Part shown: positions 12,911 through 51,906 of the stretch, piece after piece
Layout of the letters: each line of letters opens with the position of its first letter
Position numbering within the stretch: the first letter of the stretch is position 1
NCBI RefSeq assembly: GCF_031759225.1
Contig: NZ_CP134494.1
Location: forward strand, 3,780,501 to 3,844,500
DNA: 64,000 nucleotides
Reading direction: 5' to 3'
DNA from: Mesobacillus jeotgali
Lineage (GTDB): Bacteria; Bacillota; Bacilli; Bacillales; Cytobacillaceae
Translations under genes and position numbers: made by a program
Notes under the pieces: generated by a model
Told to the model about the DNA's origin: nothing
Databases searched by the model: none
Seen by the model: the letters and a program-made list of their open reading frames with translations, nothing else

Positions 12911-13150
12911 AATTAAGGATAGTTCCTTTGCTGGAATACACGAAATGTACCTTTATCGCAGACGTTTCCCCCGCATAAGGGTATGTTTTGCTCTTAAATG
13001 TACCCTTATAGCTAACGGAACCCTCGCATAAGGGTATGTTTAACTCCTAAATGTGCCCTTATAGCAGACGATCACCTCGCAAAAGGGTACGTTTCGCTCT
13101 TAAATGTACCCTTATCGAAGCAAGATGCCTCACATAAGGGTACATTTAAC
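12911..13150. repeat. 53-bp-period hairpin array, copy A
   Basis: Tandem units with exact 53-bp spacing. The CCCTTAT-type arm starts at 12950 (as CCTTTAT), 13003, 13056 and 13109; the ATAAGGG-type arm starts at 12975, 13028, 13081 (as AAAAGGG) and 13134. Each ATAAGGG arm pairs with the next CCCTTAT arm to give a 13-14 bp stem with a short loop, separated by about 18 bp of less conserved sequence. The array ends with the half-unit ATAAGGGTACATTTAACC, 8 bp before the permease stop. It fills most of the gap before cgoX; 12705-12910 shows nothing notable. Confidence 0.88.
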
Positions 13151-13157
13151 CCTAGAA

Positions 13158-21705: not shown

Positions 21706-21805
21706 ATTCGCTATATAAAGGGGGGGAACTCGCTATATAAAAAGAAAAATCGCTATATAAAAATAAAAAAATCGCTATATAAAAAGAAAACTCGCTATAT
21801 AAATG
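21706..21805. repeat. 20-22 bp tandem array, forward half
   Basis: The word TCGCTATATAA begins at 21708, 21730, 21750, 21772 and 21792, giving spacings of 22, 20, 22 and 20 bp. Linkers are A-rich. It lies downstream of the CAP-domain gene, in a gap between convergent genes. Confidence 0.9.
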
Positions 21806-21944
21806 GAAAGTGGATATAAAAAAGGAGATTTTTCGTTTTAAAATCTGGATTTTCGCCACAATATCGTGACGATACTTTAAATCAGGCATGATGTAGACCT
21901 TTTTTCATAGCAAATTCCCACGCTTTTTTAACCTCGAATAATTT

Positions 21945-22056
21945 TTTTGGCGATGTTCACAATTTTATTGGCGATTTTCAATTTTTATTGGCGAAAAAAT
22001 AAATTTATTGGCGATTTCCACTTACTTATTGGCGAAAATCAAATTTTATTGGCGAA
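21945..22056. repeat. 20-21 bp tandem array, inverted half
   Basis: TTGGCGA, usually as TTATTGGCGA, begins at 21947, 21968, 21988, 22008, 22029 and 22049, with spacings 21, 20, 20, 21 and 20 bp. Its reverse complement (TCGCCAATAA) resembles the TCGCTATATAA word of the array at 21706-21805, so the two arrays point towards each other. Confidence 0.9.
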
Positions 22057-30645: not shown

Positions 30646-30717
30646 AAAAAGGGCAATACCAAACTAGAGGGTTAAAAAAGGGCATACTGGTCCCATTTTC
30701 TTAATCCTCGTTTTTTT

Positions 30718-30853
30718 CCTTCTCCCATCCAGACTTTAACTGTCGGCCCTGGAGTTTCACCAGATCCACCGTTTAACAAATGTTAACCGGGTCACGGACT
30801 AAGAAGCATCGCTTCATCACCGCCGGTTGGGAATTTCACCCGACCCCGAAGGA
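30718..30853 (-). ncRNA. FMN riboswitch (RFN element)
   Basis: Minus-strand leader with the conserved RFN blocks: CCTTCGGGGTCGGGTGAAAT at the 5' end, CCCAACCGGCGGTGAT, then AGTCCGTGACCC, GGTGGATCTGGTGAAACTCC and GGGCCGACAGTTAAAGTCTG. The 5' and 3' ends pair through CCTTC/GAAGG-type ends. FMN binding terminates transcription of ribD-ribE-ribBA-ribH. Spacing, order and the following terminator are fully typical. Confidence 0.97.
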
Positions 30854-30871
30854 ATATATTAAGTTAGTGTC

Positions 30872-31660: not shown

Positions 31661-33160
31661 ATGAAAGGAATGAACAAAAAATTGAAACAAAAAACTACAA
31701 TAATTACACTTTTACCGCTTGTTATCATCTTAGCCATCATTCCATTTTTCCATACAGAGGAACCGCCAGCCAGAGCTATCGAGCCTGCTGGGGAGCTATC
31801 AGCAGAAATAAGGAAACTGTTAGATAATGAGCCAGTACTTGATGGAGCTTTGGCGGGGATCAGCATCAGGTCTGCAGATGGCGGAAAGCTGCTGTATGAG
31901 CAGAATGCTGACACCCGAATGCAGCCAGCCTCTGTGCTGAAATTGTTCACGGCCGCAGCAGCTCTTTCAGTTTTAGGAGAAGAATACCGGTTTACGACGG
32001 AAGTTTTGGCAGATGGAAAAGTTAACGGCGGAACGCTTGAAGGAGACCTGTTTTTAAAAGGGATGGGTGATCCGACCTTGTTGAAGGAAGATTTTGAAGA
32101 GATGGCAAAGAGACTAAAGAGTAAAGGAATCCATAAGGTTACCGGCGATATCGTGACTGATGATAGCTGGTATGATGAAGTCCGTCATTCAGAGGATCTA
32201 ACCTGGAATGACGAGCATCAATATTATGGCGCCCAGGTTTCCGCGCTAACCTCTTCGCCAAATCGCGATTTTGATGCAGGCACTGTCATTGTCAATATTT
32301 TACCAGGCAAAAAAGGAACAGGAGCGGTGATTTCACTTGAGCCTGATACTGATTATGTCACAATCATCAATGAATCGGTAACTGTGGATTCCCAAGGGAA
32401 ACAGGATATTCAAATCGAACGTGAACACGGGACGAACACCATCGGGATAACAGGGTCCATTCCTGCTGATTCAAACAAATTGAGGGAATGGGTCGCCGTC
32501 TGGGAGCCCTCCTTGTATGCAGGAAGTATTTTTAAAAAATCACTAGAAGAACAAGGGATAATAGCAGTTGGGAAAATTAGAACAGGGGCTGCAACCGACA
32601 CCATGGCCAGTTTAATTTCTCATAAATCGATGCCACTTGCGGAACTGATGATCCCCTTCATGAAATTAAGCAATAACGGCCATGCCGAAGTGCTTGTGAA
32701 GGAAATGGGAAAGGTCGTTCATGGTGAAGGCAGCTGGGAAAAAGGGCTTGAGGTGATGGACGTTGCCCTTGGGGAAATGGGCATTGACACGAGCGGACTT
32801 GTATTGCGGGACGGTTCCGGAATCTCTCACGCAAACCTCATACCAGCGAACGAAGTTAGTAAACTGCTATATCAGGCCCAAAAAGAGGAATGGTTCCCTG
32901 CATTCGAGCACTCACTTCCGGTTGCCGGGGAAGAGGACAGGATGGTGGGCGGAACAATGCGCAACAGGCTGAGAGATGAGCAACTGAAGGATCGTGTGGC
33001 CGCCAAAACAGGCACACTAACAGGCGTAAGCACCCTGGCCGGCTACGTCAAAACAAGCCGCGGCGAAACGCTTATTTTTACCATTATGCTGAATAACCTG
33101 CTGGACGATCGAGAAGGCAGGAAAGTGGAAGATGACATTGTTAGGTTACTTGCAAGGTAA
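31661..33160 (+). CDS. D-alanyl-D-alanine carboxypeptidase/endopeptidase (PBP4 type, S13)
   Basis: 499-residue exported penicillin-binding protein. An N-terminal membrane helix or signal (about 12-30) is followed by the active-site motif PASVLKLFTAAAAL (S-x-x-K, about residue 90), a long inserted domain (about 120-310), then SNNGHAEVLVKEM (S-x-N) and AAKTGTLTGVSTLAGY (K-T-G). This is the S13 class of Bacillus DacC and E. coli DacB, which trims or cleaves peptidoglycan peptides outside the membrane. A cysteine is absent from the lipobox region. The 53-bp array starts just after its stop. Confidence 0.93.
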   Translation: MKGMNKKLKQKTTIITLLPLVIILAIIPFFHTEEPPARAIEPAGELSAEIRKLLDNEPVLDGALAGISIRSADGGKLLYEQNADTRMQPASVLKLFTAAAALSVLGEEYRFTTEVLADGKVNGGTLEGDLFLKGMGDPTLLKEDFEEMAKRLKSKGIHKVTGDIVTDDSWYDEVRHSEDLTWNDEHQYYGAQVSALTSSPNRDFDAGTVIVNILPGKKGTGAVISLEPDTDYVTIINESVTVDSQGKQDIQIEREHGTNTIGITGSIPADSNKLREWVAVWEPSLYAGSIFKKSLEEQGIIAVGKIRTGAATDTMASLISHKSMPLAELMIPFMKLSNNGHAEVLVKEMGKVVHGEGSWEKGLEVMDVALGEMGIDTSGLVLRDGSGISHANLIPANEVSKLLYQAQKEEWFPAFEHSLPVAGEEDRMVGGTMRNRLRDEQLKDRVAAKTGTLTGVSTLAGYVKTSRGETLIFTIMLNNLLDDREGRKVEDDIVRLLAR

Positions 33161-33175
33161 CCCTTGTAAAAATTA

Positions 33176-33648
33176 CGGGGCCCTTATGTAGGTGTATTGA
33201 GATGCGTAAGGGTACACTTAGCTCTGAAATGTGCCCTTATGTTGGTGTAATAGGAAGCATAAAGGTACATTTTGCTTTGGAATGTAACCTTATGTAGGTG
33301 TAATAGGAAGCATAAAGGTACATTTTGCTTTGGAATGTAACCTTATATAGGTGTATCGCGATGCATAAGGCTACATTTTGCTTTGGAATGTGCCCTTATG
33401 TAGGTGTATCGTGATGCATTAGGGTACATTTTGCTTTGGAATGTGCCCTTATGTAGGTGTATCGTGATGCATAAGGGTACATTTTGCTTTGGAATGTACC
33501 CTTATGTAGGTGTATCGCGATGCATAAGGGTACATTTTGCTTTGGAATGTGCCCTTATGTAGGTGTATCGTGATGCATTAGGGTACATTTTGCTTTGGAA
33601 TGTGCCCTTATGTAGGTGTATCGCGATGCATAAGGGTACATTTAACCT
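33176..33648. repeat. 53-bp-period hairpin array, copy B (nine units)
   Basis: The CCTTAT arm starts at 33182, 33235, 33288, 33341, 33394, 33447, 33500, 33553 and 33606, exactly 53 bp apart each time. Each unit has arms ATAAGGGTACATT and AATGTRCCCTTAT around a 9-nt loop TTGCTTTGG, joined to the next by an 18-bp spacer like GTAGGTGTATCGTGATGC. Units two and three are near-identical to each other and differ from the rest, suggesting recent local duplication. The array ends with the half-unit ATAAGGGTACATTTAACC, the same end as the array at 12911-13150. It fills the gap between the convergent carboxypeptidase and NERD genes. Confidence 0.96.
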
Positions 33649-33696: not shown

Positions 33697-34635
33697 TTAC
33701 TCTATTATCAGGTAACCCTCTTTATTTTCTTTTATTGTATAGTGAGCACCACGACCACAGCCGCTCAATGTAAAGTCATCTAAGAGAATGTTCCTGATGG
33801 CTTTTTTCGTTTTAATCGATTTGCTCCATTCATGAATCTTACTGAGTGTTAACACTTCTCCCGGAAAAAGTAATTGGAGCTCTCTGACACTTCTCAATAC
33901 TGCCTCATGGATGTTTTCCCGTTTCCCGCAACTAATGCATATTAATGTTTTTCTGGTAACTATAGTATTCACAGTATGACAATGGGAACAGGCCATTCCC
34001 TTCTTCAAACTCTCGAAACTATATTCTGGGAGCCTTTTATACGGTGAATCTTGGGAATGCAGGGTAAGCAGCCGTTCTGCTAGATTATTGTGGGTATTTT
34101 TTATTGGGGCAGTTTGTTTTTGCAGGTTTTTAAGAAGTCTTGGAATCTGGTTAGGAAAAACAATTGGTAGATTACGTGGAGCTTGATAGAGGTAAAAGTT
34201 TGGGTTCACGAAGACTAGAGTTGATTCGATATTAATGTTGAATCCAAGGTCTCGTACCATCCTTCGCAGGAGAGACTCTGCTCTTTCCATTTGTTGCAGA
34301 GGATTCTTGATTTCTACTCCATTGTTGGTATACCACCGATCACCTTCAATAAAGTAATCGCCTTCGAAGTACTTCACTTCGAACAAATGGATGATCTTGG
34401 AGATGAAGAGGGAATCGATTTGAAATTTTGTATTTCCATATTCAAGGAGCAGATCATTCACAACCAGGTAGCCTTTTTCTACCTCCTCCATCCAGCGATC
34501 AAAAATCACTTCTCCTTCATAGCCTTTTTCCAGGTATTGATAGTTACTGTATTCTTTCGAAGACAGGGTCATTCGAGCATTCAGCATTCTCAAGATCTGC
34601 AGCTCCAAGGATTCAACACGCGATTTTACTATCAA
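33697..34635 (-). CDS. NERD-domain nuclease-related protein with zinc ribbon
   Basis: 312-residue protein. I read the start as TTG at 34635 (MIVKSRVESLELQ), 8 nt from GGAGG; an ATG 15 bp upstream overlaps that site. The NERD domain (about 35-150) shows EKGYEGEVIFDRW, then FQIDSLFIS and IHLFEVKYFEGDYF, i.e. the E...D...E-x-K pattern of restriction-like nucleases. A C-terminal zinc ribbon follows (CSHCHTVN...LICISCGKR) and then a helical region. Proteins of this kind are widespread in Bacillus, with unproven DNA-processing roles. No partner genes nearby. Confidence 0.85.
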   Translation of the reverse strand: MIVKSRVESLELQILRMLNARMTLSSKEYSNYQYLEKGYEGEVIFDRWMEEVEKGYLVVNDLLLEYGNTKFQIDSLFISKIIHLFEVKYFEGDYFIEGDRWYTNNGVEIKNPLQQMERAESLLRRMVRDLGFNINIESTLVFVNPNFYLYQAPRNLPIVFPNQIPRLLKNLQKQTAPIKNTHNNLAERLLTLHSQDSPYKRLPEYSFESLKKGMACSHCHTVNTIVTRKTLICISCGKRENIHEAVLRSVRELQLLFPGEVLTLSKIHEWSKSIKTKKAIRNILLDDFTLSGCGRGAHYTIKENKEGYLIIE

Positions 34636-34745
34636 AAAGCATTCCTCCATTCGTTATGTATTGCAATTAAATAGTATGGGTTTTTCGAATACTTAACAAG
34701 CTTTTTATTTACCCCTATGCGTATAAGAAAAAATATACAATTGAG

Positions 34746-34798: not shown

Positions 34799-34867
34799 GT
34801 TACTTAGCAAATCTATGATTTCAATTGTCCCAGTTACTTCGCGAATCTATGATTTCCAATTGTCACA
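34799..34867. repeat. 35-bp tandem duplication at the 3' end of the hydrolase gene
   Basis: Two adjacent copies of GTTACTTNGCRAATCTATGA plus 15 further bp (34799-34832, 34 bp after a 1-bp loss, and 34833-34867). The upstream-strand copy encodes the protein's last dozen residues and stop; the other lies beyond the stop and has three substitutions. Confidence 0.85.
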
Positions 34868-35430
34868 GTTACTTCTCTTGAGAATACCCACTTGCTCACT
34901 GCAGTCTTCGGGTTAAAGAAGAATAATGAGCCTTTGCCCTGTCCTCTGAAAGCTAGTGCTTCTTTTACGGCTTTCTTTGCTTCTGCGTCAGCTGGCTTGT
35001 TGATTGCGCCATTTTTTACAGGAGTGAAGGCGTAGTAGCCGTTTGACTTTTCATAGACAACTCCCTTTACTGTGTTAGGGAAGTCCGGGCTCGCTACTCT
35101 ATTCAAGACAACAGTTGCTACTGCTACTTTCCCTGCATATGGCTCGCCTTTTGCCTCAGCGTGGACCAGTCTTGCAAGCAAGTCCTGATCTGCAGCTGAA
35201 ACAGTTGCAGCCGGGATGGTCAACTTTTGTCCTGGATATAGTAGATTGCTAGTTCGATTGTTCGTTTTTTTCAATTCTGTCACAGGCACACCATATTTGC
35301 TAGCGATTCCCCACATTGTGTCTCCTGTTTTTACCTGGTAAGTTGCCGCTTCAGCAGCTGCTCCCATTGAAAATAGTGACAAGGATACCGCAGCTGTTAG
35401 CGCTGCCAATGTTTTTTTCATCTTTCTCAT
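34834..35430 (-). CDS. LysM-containing cell wall hydrolase (SleB/CwlJ type)
   Basis: 198-residue secreted protein. It has a signal peptide MKKTLAALTAAVSLSLF ending near AAAEAA, one LysM domain (about 30-73, YQVKTGDTMWGIASKYGVPV) for peptidoglycan or chitin-like binding, and a Hydrolase_2 domain (about 80-198) with LLARLVHAEAKGEPYAGKVA, the catalytic Glu region of SleB-like lytic enzymes, and SLFFFNPKTA. The family includes germination-specific enzymes and the vegetative YkvT. The start used has GGGAGG at 8 nt. Confidence 0.92.
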   Translation of the reverse strand: MRKMKKTLAALTAAVSLSLFSMGAAAEAATYQVKTGDTMWGIASKYGVPVTELKKTNNRTSNLLYPGQKLTIPAATVSAADQDLLARLVHAEAKGEPYAGKVAVATVVLNRVASPDFPNTVKGVVYEKSNGYYAFTPVKNGAINKPADAEAKKAVKEALAFRGQGKGSLFFFNPKTAVSKWVFSREVTVTIGNHRFAK

Positions 35431-37348: not shown

Positions 37349-37373
37349 CATATAAGCTGATTGGATTGATTTT

Positions 37374-37700
37374 ATCGGACAAACCCAGGACGATTTCCCA
37401 TGAAAGTGTCCGTTAGAAGGGCTCTATCGGACAAACTCGGGATGATTTCCCCTGAAAGTGTCCATTAGAAGGGATCTATCGGTCAAACTCAGGACGATTT
37501 CCCGTGAAAGTGTCCGTTAGAAGGGCTCTATCGGACAAACTCGGGATGATTTCCTGTGAAAGTGTCCGTTAGAAGGGCTCTATCGGACAAACTCAGGACG
37601 ATTTCCTGTGAAAGTGTCGGTTAGAAGGGCTCTATTGGTCATTTTCACGATGATTTTTCCGAAAAGTGTCCATTAGGCTGGCTCTATAGATTTAACCCAG
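37374..37700. repeat. 52-bp-period hairpin array (TCGGACA family)
   Basis: TCGGACA-type arms start at 37375, 37427, 37479, 37531, 37583, 37635 and, degenerate, 37687: exactly 52 bp apart. Within each unit TCGGACA pairs with TGTCCG about 25 bp downstream, and an inner CAGGA/TCCTG or CGGGA/TCCC pairing is present in several units. A 14-bp spacer TTAGAAGGGCTCTA links units. In the unit at 37635 the outer arm changes to TTGG...CCA, keeping a pair. Bracketed by plus-strand terminators on both sides. No coding potential. Confidence 0.95.
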
Positions 37701-48920: not shown

Positions 48921-49140
48921 TCCTGTCATAATAATCGCATTTTCTTGACAGCTTTACGCCCTACAGCCTGAAACCTGTCATAATAAACACTCTTTCTTGA
49001 CAGCCTTACGCCCTATAAGCTAAAACCTGTCATAATAACCGCTCTTTCTTGACAGCCTTACGCCCTATAAGCTAAAACCTGTCACAATAAACTCGTTTTC
49101 TTGACAACTTTGCGCTCTACAGCCCGAAACCTGACAGTCA
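48921..49140. repeat. 52-bp-period hairpin array (CCTGTCATAATAA family)
   Basis: CCTGTCA-type arms begin at 48922, 48974, 49026, 49078 and, partial, 49130 (CCTGACA): exactly 52 bp apart. In each unit CTGTCA pairs with TGACAG across about 17 nt (TGACAA in the fourth). Spacers contain a repeated TTACGCCCTA. The sequence is unrelated to the other 52-bp array. It lies between the MITE and the small membrane protein gene; 49141-49260 shows nothing clear. Confidence 0.93.
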
Positions 49141-51757: not shown

Positions 51758-51814
51758 GGCCAAATAGTCTTTCATTACCATTTGCCAGTAATTGGTTTTA
51801 TCATCCGTTCTTTT

Positions 51815-51890
51815 TTGGCAACCCGACGATCATAGCTGTATTGCCTTAGACTCGTGGCTTTGCGTCCTCATCTTTCGATAAGTTTGCCTT
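51815..51890 (-). ncRNA. Cyclic di-GMP-I riboswitch (GEMM-I)
   Basis: Minus-strand RNA with the GEMM-I core: closing stem GGCAA/TTGCC, then ACTTATCGAAAGATGAGG (GAAA tetraloop stem), GACGCAAAGCCAC, TCTAAGG (tetraloop-receptor side) and ATCGTCGGGTTGCC. These are the conserved ligand-pocket blocks of the class, all in order. A sigma-A promoter precedes and a terminator follows. Lies 190 nt before the next plus-strand gene and 270 nt before its own minus-strand target gene. Confidence 0.95.
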
Positions 51891-51906
51891 TTTCAGTTCT
51901 ATTTAA

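Follow-up and report, generated by a model that had tools for sequence, protein, structure and literature searches.

A 53-bp tandem array beside a NERD-domain gene in Mesobacillus jeotgali is probably the home array of a two-part nuclease and repeat system

An array of 53-bp units at positions 33180-33643 of a 64,000-nucleotide stretch of Mesobacillus jeotgali DNA (hereafter the window; positions 3780501-3844500 of a single 4.63-Mb contig) appears to serve as home array to a two-part system that pairs a NERD-domain protein with a repeat family in a REP/RAYT-like manner, with an unrelated nuclease as the enzyme; we put the probability of this reading at roughly 0.7. By computation we found a pairing of NERD genes with such arrays, strict spacing of the units, a protein domain that covaries with the repeat motif, and near-absence of the family where its NERD gene is absent. 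A preliminary description of the array, made from the letters of the window, missed both the neighboring NERD gene and the genome-wide system. Its remark that the layout matches no described Bacillus repeat agrees with our literature search, which found no earlier description and no paper linking NERD proteins to repeats, within a coverage that leaves most subscription papers and bioRxiv preprints outside; in the literature searched, the pairing of a NERD-type gene with an evenly spaced repeat family has not been reported earlier.

The home array and its NERD-domain neighbor

The repeat family, here called F1, has at this site a home ("mother") array of alternating ACCCTTAT-like and ATAAGGGT-like arms, which lies 3' of the NERD gene and is defined by TRF, by the arm positions, and by same-site arrays in relatives. 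TRF gives a period of 53 with 8.8 copies, 91% matches, 0% indels and a score of 714. CCTTAT starts at 33182, 33235, 33288, 33341, 33394, 33447, 33500, 33553 and 33606, all eight steps being 53, exactly as the preliminary description had it. The 13-bp stem that it assigned to each unit is perfect in one of the eight complete hairpins, with one to three mismatches in the other seven and the right arm absent from the ninth unit, and its loop, TTGCTTTGG, is present in seven of nine units rather than in every one. The array takes 464 of 536 intergenic bases, and thus does not occupy the entire convergent gap that it had been said to fill. The convergent gene on the side opposite the NERD gene (31661-33160, plus strand, 499 aa), putatively PBP4/DacB-like, was used as a synteny anchor across genomes. 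A CRISPR array is ruled out, since spacers recur inside the F1 home array. Rfam at gathering score gave two matches in the whole window, neither at the home array; an FMN riboswitch (30713-30857, minus strand) and a c-di-GMP-I riboswitch (51814-51898, minus strand) lie in the window.

The NERD-domain protein (33697-34650, minus strand, 317 aa) is the predicted F1 partner, as judged from its ORF, its match to PF08378 (61.9 bits against a gathering cut-off of 22.1, E 9.9e-17) and co-occurrence with the family. Its architecture combines a PD-(D/E)xK nuclease-like domain, a C4 zinc ribbon and a C-terminal winged helix. Across 64 sequences E42, D74, K88 and cysteines 219, 233 and 236 are invariant, and E86 and C216 are conserved in at least 90%; we read E42, D74, E86 and K88 as a putatively intact catalytic PD-(D/E)xK set. 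In the structural model, residues 3-177 resemble PD-(D/E)xK nucleases and residues 228-309 winged helices, with nothing at E <= 0.001 when Foldseek was run against the PDB (best 1.6e-3, Card1 and an R2 retrotransposon chain) and no real relative in a sequence search of solved structures (best E 0.46). The nearest named NERD, a Mesobacillus subterraneus protein, is 93% identical. A separate 34-bp repeat (2.2 copies, 34799-34875) overlaps the 3' end of the gene at 34834-35430. According to the authors of a 2022 report, and to their knowledge, the importance of the NERD domain had previously been neither studied nor verified in any bacterial protein (PMC9040797).

Pairing of NERD genes with arrays, and motifs that follow the C-terminus

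The pairing of NERD genes with arrays is virtually certain. After F1 and two further loci from the sampled stretches (L050, L062), an array was predicted beside every close NERD paralog (E <= 1e-15 to the F1 NERD). In the M. jeotgali genome (G000) all seven close paralogs proved to have one, with a period of 51-53 bp, on the 3' side of the gene and with a motif that differs from paralog to paralog; for the six non-F1 paralogs it lies 12-73 bp from the end of the matched frame. Among the close NERD loci fetched overall, 15 of 17 have such an array, L324 and L329 being without one, and NERD arrays of G000, G018 and G007 have in common GGGCACCAAT paired with ATTGGTGACC or with a variant that differs at one base. 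At locus L333 (G010:3369800-3376800) the NERD matches two overlapping frames and looks broken, and the home array still has 14.1 copies.

Within the GTDB family, 105 of the 121 genomes, from 19 of 25 genera, have a NERD homolog at E <= 1e-15, and at E <= 1e-30 homologs were detected in 15 of 250 class-wide genomes, three of those 15 belonging to the same family. Outside the genus, 34 of 41 NERD loci have a best 3' period of 51-53 at a self-match of at least 65%, whereas among ordinary genes from the family's other genera the figure is 4 of 348 (Fisher 1.8e-37); the same property was found in 2 of 176 ordinary genes in the order's other families and 29 of 499 in the M. jeotgali genome, where in each null set windows with N were skipped and periods 51-53 alone were considered. 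TRF added arrays at L344 and L349, and the exceptions include an array on the 5' side (L347), a weak one (L425) and a locus with none at the 3' end (L426). More distant homologs have a different geometry: a second class of arrays, with a period of 20-21 (two helical turns), lies 5' of all three distant paralogs fetched (L321 and L322 in G000, L328 in G018), and two distant homologs (L417, L418) have 3' arrays with best periods of 61 and 41, about multiples of 20.5.

The strongest evidence that the C-terminal part reads the motif comes from one ortholog group of 16 NERD proteins (68-100% identity to the G018 copy), for which home-array motifs were read from TRF units and fall into class A (TATCGGACA, n=8), class B (TATGACGGACA, n=2) and class C (TTAGACATTTT, n=5), the G005 member having no TRF array at the point where its contig ends. 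Class A is fully separated from class C by 24 alignment columns, all of them at residues 231-304 and none in the first 230. On the tree of the N-terminal part the classes require six changes, no better than with shuffled labels (mean 6.1; 120 of 200 shuffles needed no more), whereas on the C-terminal tree they require two, the minimum possible, and none of 200 shuffles was as low. Two proteins (G017 and G019) are 96% identical in the N-terminal part, yet belong to different classes. The G005 C-terminus groups with class B, whose motif was also read in the stub of an array left where the G005 contig breaks off, which was examined afterwards. From this covariation, the C-terminal zinc-ribbon and winged-helix part very probably reads the motif, and it seems to be exchanged as a module.

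At the level of the family, F1 was traced with a three-arm pattern, ACCCTTAT-gap-ATAAGGGT-gap-ACCCTTAT, in which the gaps were free over 8-28 and 9-29. The M. jeotgali genome has 37 forward and 40 reverse matches and the reversed-pattern control has 0, so the pattern is beyond chance. It matched 15 of 151 genomes, all within the genus, and nearly all listed matches have the 53-bp layout. These 15, among 21 genus genomes, are the same 15 that have an F1 NERD ortholog at an identity of at least 79% (Fisher 1.8e-5, kinship ignored), the ortholog of G011 having been found in two pieces; in the remaining six genomes the best match is a paralog of no more than 47% identity, or there is none. F1 units, counted with one mismatch allowed, number 26-156 per genome in the 15 NERD-positive genomes (control 0), eight in the NERD-negative G018, and 0 each in G007, G002, G014, G008 and G009, the last of which is only 66% complete. 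The eight units of G018 are scattered save one small cluster and look like remnants.

The DacB-like gene is present in 19 of the 21 genomes, 14 of them F1-positive, and a period-53 array lies beside it in 13 of these 14 and in none of the five F1-negative ones; in the fourteenth, G005, a contig end cuts the site and a partial unit is visible. As the preliminary description had foreseen for a comparison between relatives, the 53-bp period is kept at the same site while copy number varies from 2.5 to 20.3, some of these counts being clipped by the 1.5-kb flank or by contig ends. In G016 (L267) the DacB-like gene has a short F1 array on its 3' side, and just beyond this array lies a transposase-like frame, putatively IS256-like. 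A tree of the DacB-like protein, a single gene, places G018 and G007 inside the F1-positive clade and needs three changes; one gain and two losses is one possible history that fits. Joint loss at the home site would be trivial, because the NERD gene and array are adjacent, but genome-wide absence of the family is not.

In a named genome collection, the arm pattern (80 of 104 matches listed) was found in Mesobacillus (three species) and Bacillus sp. ISL-37, -41, -45 and -55, the same 80 also including two differently named records and nine isolated matches elsewhere. The two records, JAGGQZ01 (Chryseobacterium sp. ISL-80) and NZ_VEEP01 (Cytobacillus oceanisediminis DE0166), have many F1 arrays and for that reason are possibly misnamed or mixed. 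The single matches (L143, L145, L149, L150, L160, L163, L184, L154 and L166) are probably unrelated; those in Prevotella, Bacteroides and Treponema records span 56 bases, while the Halomonas match spans 60 and the one from a Chloroflexi record 50.

Dispersed arrays and the spacing of their units

The F1 home array is one of many intergenic arrays of this kind in the genome. A sample of 864 kb, made up of the window and 40 stretches of 20 kb spaced evenly over the chromosome, has 66 tandem arrays with a period of at least 15. Of these, 36 have a period of 50-53 (27 of 52, six of 53, two of 51 and one of 50), cover 14,225 of 864,000 bases, and belong to families with unrelated motifs; scaled from this sample, the whole genome would hold ~190 of them. 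Compared with nine reference home arrays, two of which were taken from relatives, 28 of the 36 match one at 0.58 or more, the three home arrays among them included, and eight fall short; the maximum of 60 shuffles was 0.52.

Besides the F1 home array, TRF located in the window three further arrays, with periods of 52 or 53, and two ~20-bp repeat blocks. The array at 12943-13154 is a dispersed ("daughter") F1 array with a period of 53, the same arms and different spacers, and it matches the home array at 0.60 (shuffled maximum 0.52). The other two have motifs unrelated to the F1 arms ACCCTTAT/ATAAGGGT: a daughter array at 37373-37687 (period 52, motif TATCGGACA/TGTCCGTTA), matching the class A home array of G018 (L327) at 0.71, and one at 48922-49133 (period 52, motif CCTGTCA/TTGACAG), matching at 0.75 the L319 home array, which is found with its NERD gene beyond the window, near G000:2759695-2761127. 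The two ~20-bp blocks, TCGCTATATAAA and TTATTGGCGAA, belong to the second array class, of period 20-21, and occupy 21730-22056, and the second resembles by eye the array (L322) beside the distant NERD paralog at G000:835878.

Array populations of a class other than that of the resident enzyme persist, our own genome included. Its ortholog of the G018 class A NERD is class C, though arrays with class A or (by eye) class B motifs lie at G000 1163616, 1506817, 3685510, 3817873 (37373-37687 of the window) and 3911109. By forward count, class A units number 27-124 in the eight class A genomes against 13-45 in the five class C genomes (p 0.019), class C units number 13-68 against 30-73 (p 0.13), and the ratio of the two differs between these sets of genomes (p 0.011); control patterns gave 0 matches for class A, and for class C no more than 1, in three genomes. 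Among class B genomes, G015 has 24 class A and 22 class C units, G006 has 38 and 55, and G005 has 18 and 41. Four genomes with no group ortholog at 60% identity or more (G002, G008, G009 and G011) show 0-2 matches to class A and 0-6 to class C, and G004, which is 87% complete and in which no group ortholog was found, has 26 and 36 units, respectively.

A site 3' of a putative katA-like gene was compared over 17 loci (L360 and L366 not oriented; L369 and L370 omitted as partial). It holds from 0 to about 9 units in different species, the small numbers being counted by eye, and in G002 (L363) and G014 (L359) a different family, GGTCACCAAT, stands where other species have TATCGGACA units. At these two loci an apparent terminator stem is, by eye, made of a motif similar to GGTCACCAAT. 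No clean empty site was obtained here: G019 lacks an array, with flanks too diverged for an insertion to be read.

Spacing was measured on 112 F1 array instances from our own-genome samples, relatives and the named collection, reduced to 98 groups that share no 60-mer, with orthologs across species counted apart. The distance between the first and second arm (M to M') has a mode of 26 in 82 of 90 scored arrays, and that from M' to the next M a mode of 27, likewise in 82 of 90; off-mode distances are 6, 17, 18, 25, 26, 28 or 32. The spacer centers are 31-33% identical, near chance. Thus the F1 spacer is held in length and is nearly free in sequence, which supports the preliminary observation that the period is kept despite base changes. 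Five turns of B-DNA correspond to 52.5 bp, and the fixed length with nearly free sequence, together with this five-turn period, points to a function in double-stranded DNA. A constant half-spacing was considered for all families and rejected: F1 has 26/27, and other home arrays look unequal by eye, so our claim is limited to the full period.

A proposed system, its alternatives and known relatives

We infer that the NERD protein binds the array directly. Its winged helix and zinc ribbon would read the array motif (in F1, around ACCCTTAT) in alternating orientation along the DNA, and with a period of 52-53 bp, or five helical turns, each unit would therefore turn an identical face to the protein. 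Nicking or cutting at the array is probably the work of the N-terminal PD-(D/E)xK domain; recombination repair would then expand, homogenize and disperse arrays to other 3' intergenic sites, and in the absence of the partner protein arrays would be lost through deletion. For the step in which the nuclease drives array amplification, we regard the chances as evenly balanced. A broader claim, which in our estimate falls a little short of probable, is that NERD proteins of Bacilli are unreported, non-HUH, sequence-specific nucleases that spread their own phased recognition arrays by break-and-copy and swap the C-terminal winged-helix target module, a second subfamily doing likewise with a two-turn (20-21 bp) period.

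The alternative that survives best, though we consider it unlikely, is a host function, in which NERD is an architectural or regulatory coat on phased arrays at gene ends (a read-through block, supercoil sink or domain mark), the nuclease fold is rarely used, and the arrays are kept for the benefit of the host. The five-turn period suits protein coating, and the placement of the arrays is suggestive: they are intergenic, with 17 of the 36 in convergent gaps, 15 codirectional, one apparently divergent (adjoining a short ORF) and three at stretch edges. Relative to 593 background gaps from genes called by a simple ORF script (120 convergent, 366 codirectional, 107 divergent), convergent gaps are favored (17 of 33 placed arrays against 120 of 593, p 1.1e-4) and divergent gaps avoided (1 of 33 against 107 of 593, p 0.03). 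However, the same placement is expected if insertions elsewhere are purged. The katA-like 3' site, having one family in some species and another in two, also fits a host role, but the absence of F1 from G007, and nearly so from G018, and the conservation of the catalytic residues speak against it.

An anti-phage or anti-plasmid nuclease that is held or tuned by the arrays is very unlikely. The NERD domain occurs in some defense proteins, and our protein has a weak partial match to the MAD6 profile (E 3.9e-05, 22.4 bits against a cut-off of 460), but a PADLOC search with it returned only a chance-level match (E 0.067), and seven paralogs with separate array families would be unaccounted for.

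We give still less credence to transcribed hairpin arrays acting as terminators, mRNA stabilizers or protein sponges, and the emphasis of the preliminary description on hairpins finds no support. Inverted arms exist in F1 units, a stem is possible in each complete unit and perfect over 13 bp in one, and arrays are mostly 3' of genes. Nonetheless, the other seven of eight stems are mismatched, six of the eight hairpins with at least one mismatch that is not G-U, and the covariance check that had been suggested found no general covariation in spacer positions over 98 arrays, which together make RNA hairpins unlikely as the main role. In the 18 spacer pairs of the two possible hairpins, one had an excess of complementarity over shuffled pairs (z 3.3), and 17 had none, several lying below; these pair counts led us to reject the hairpin reading as the main explanation. 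Furthermore, unrelated sequences have the same period, and Rfam has no match at the F1 array. Least probable of all is a neutral satellite that inherited 52-53 bp from an ancestor, with NERD adjacent by chance or hitch-hiking, since, although tandem repeats are known to expand by slippage and copy number differs widely among related species, such inheritance is disfavored by a length that stays fixed while spacer centers are near random, by the NERD neighborhood (34 of 41 against 4 of 348), and by a motif that tracks the C-terminal domain.

Returning to the two-part NERD/repeat system, its nearest parallels are found among enzymes with separable target recognition and among dispersed repeats. 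FokI and similar restriction enzymes have separate DNA-reading and PD-(D/E)xK cutting parts, and the fold matches suggest that NERD likewise has a DNA-reading part apart from its nuclease-fold part; here, however, cutting is only predicted, and the partner sites are tandem arrays, not single sites. The RAYT enzyme is an IS200/IS605-like (Y1 HUH) transposase, whereas ours is a NERD protein that joins a PD-(D/E)xK domain to a zinc ribbon and a winged helix and in which a Pfam scan found no Y1 transposase family, and this places the NERD/array system outside the REP/RAYT family. It further differs from REP/RAYT in that the array lies on the 3' side as a rule, not on both sides, and in that the period is locked at 51-53 bp with spacers nearly free in sequence. 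The likenesses are nevertheless extensive. As PMC2817692 and PMC3116915 describe for REP/RAYT, a family of dispersed repeats is carried by the gene of an enzyme and evolves together with it, and the parallels with the REP/BIME-RAYT systems and REPINs of these accounts include dispersed extragenic repeats in alternating orientation and in many copies per genome, repeats of the cognate family next to the enzyme gene (here seven of seven close paralogs), co-evolution of enzyme and repeat, and a repeat abundance that follows the enzyme (26-156 F1 units with the NERD, 0-8 without). A partial homology to the NERD domain has been described for SmdA of Staphylococcus aureus, which differs in being a membrane protein needed for cell morphology and, in that description, in being without several conserved NERD residues (PMC9040797). 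If our reading is true, it would supply a function and a target for a widespread bacterial domain whose role is, on the account given in that report, largely unstudied (PMC9040797), would account for a large class of the tandem repeats that lie between genes in Bacilli, would provide a natural series of DNA-reading modules with matching motifs, and would represent a second independent invention of the enzyme-plus-dispersed-repeat lifestyle known from REP/RAYT.
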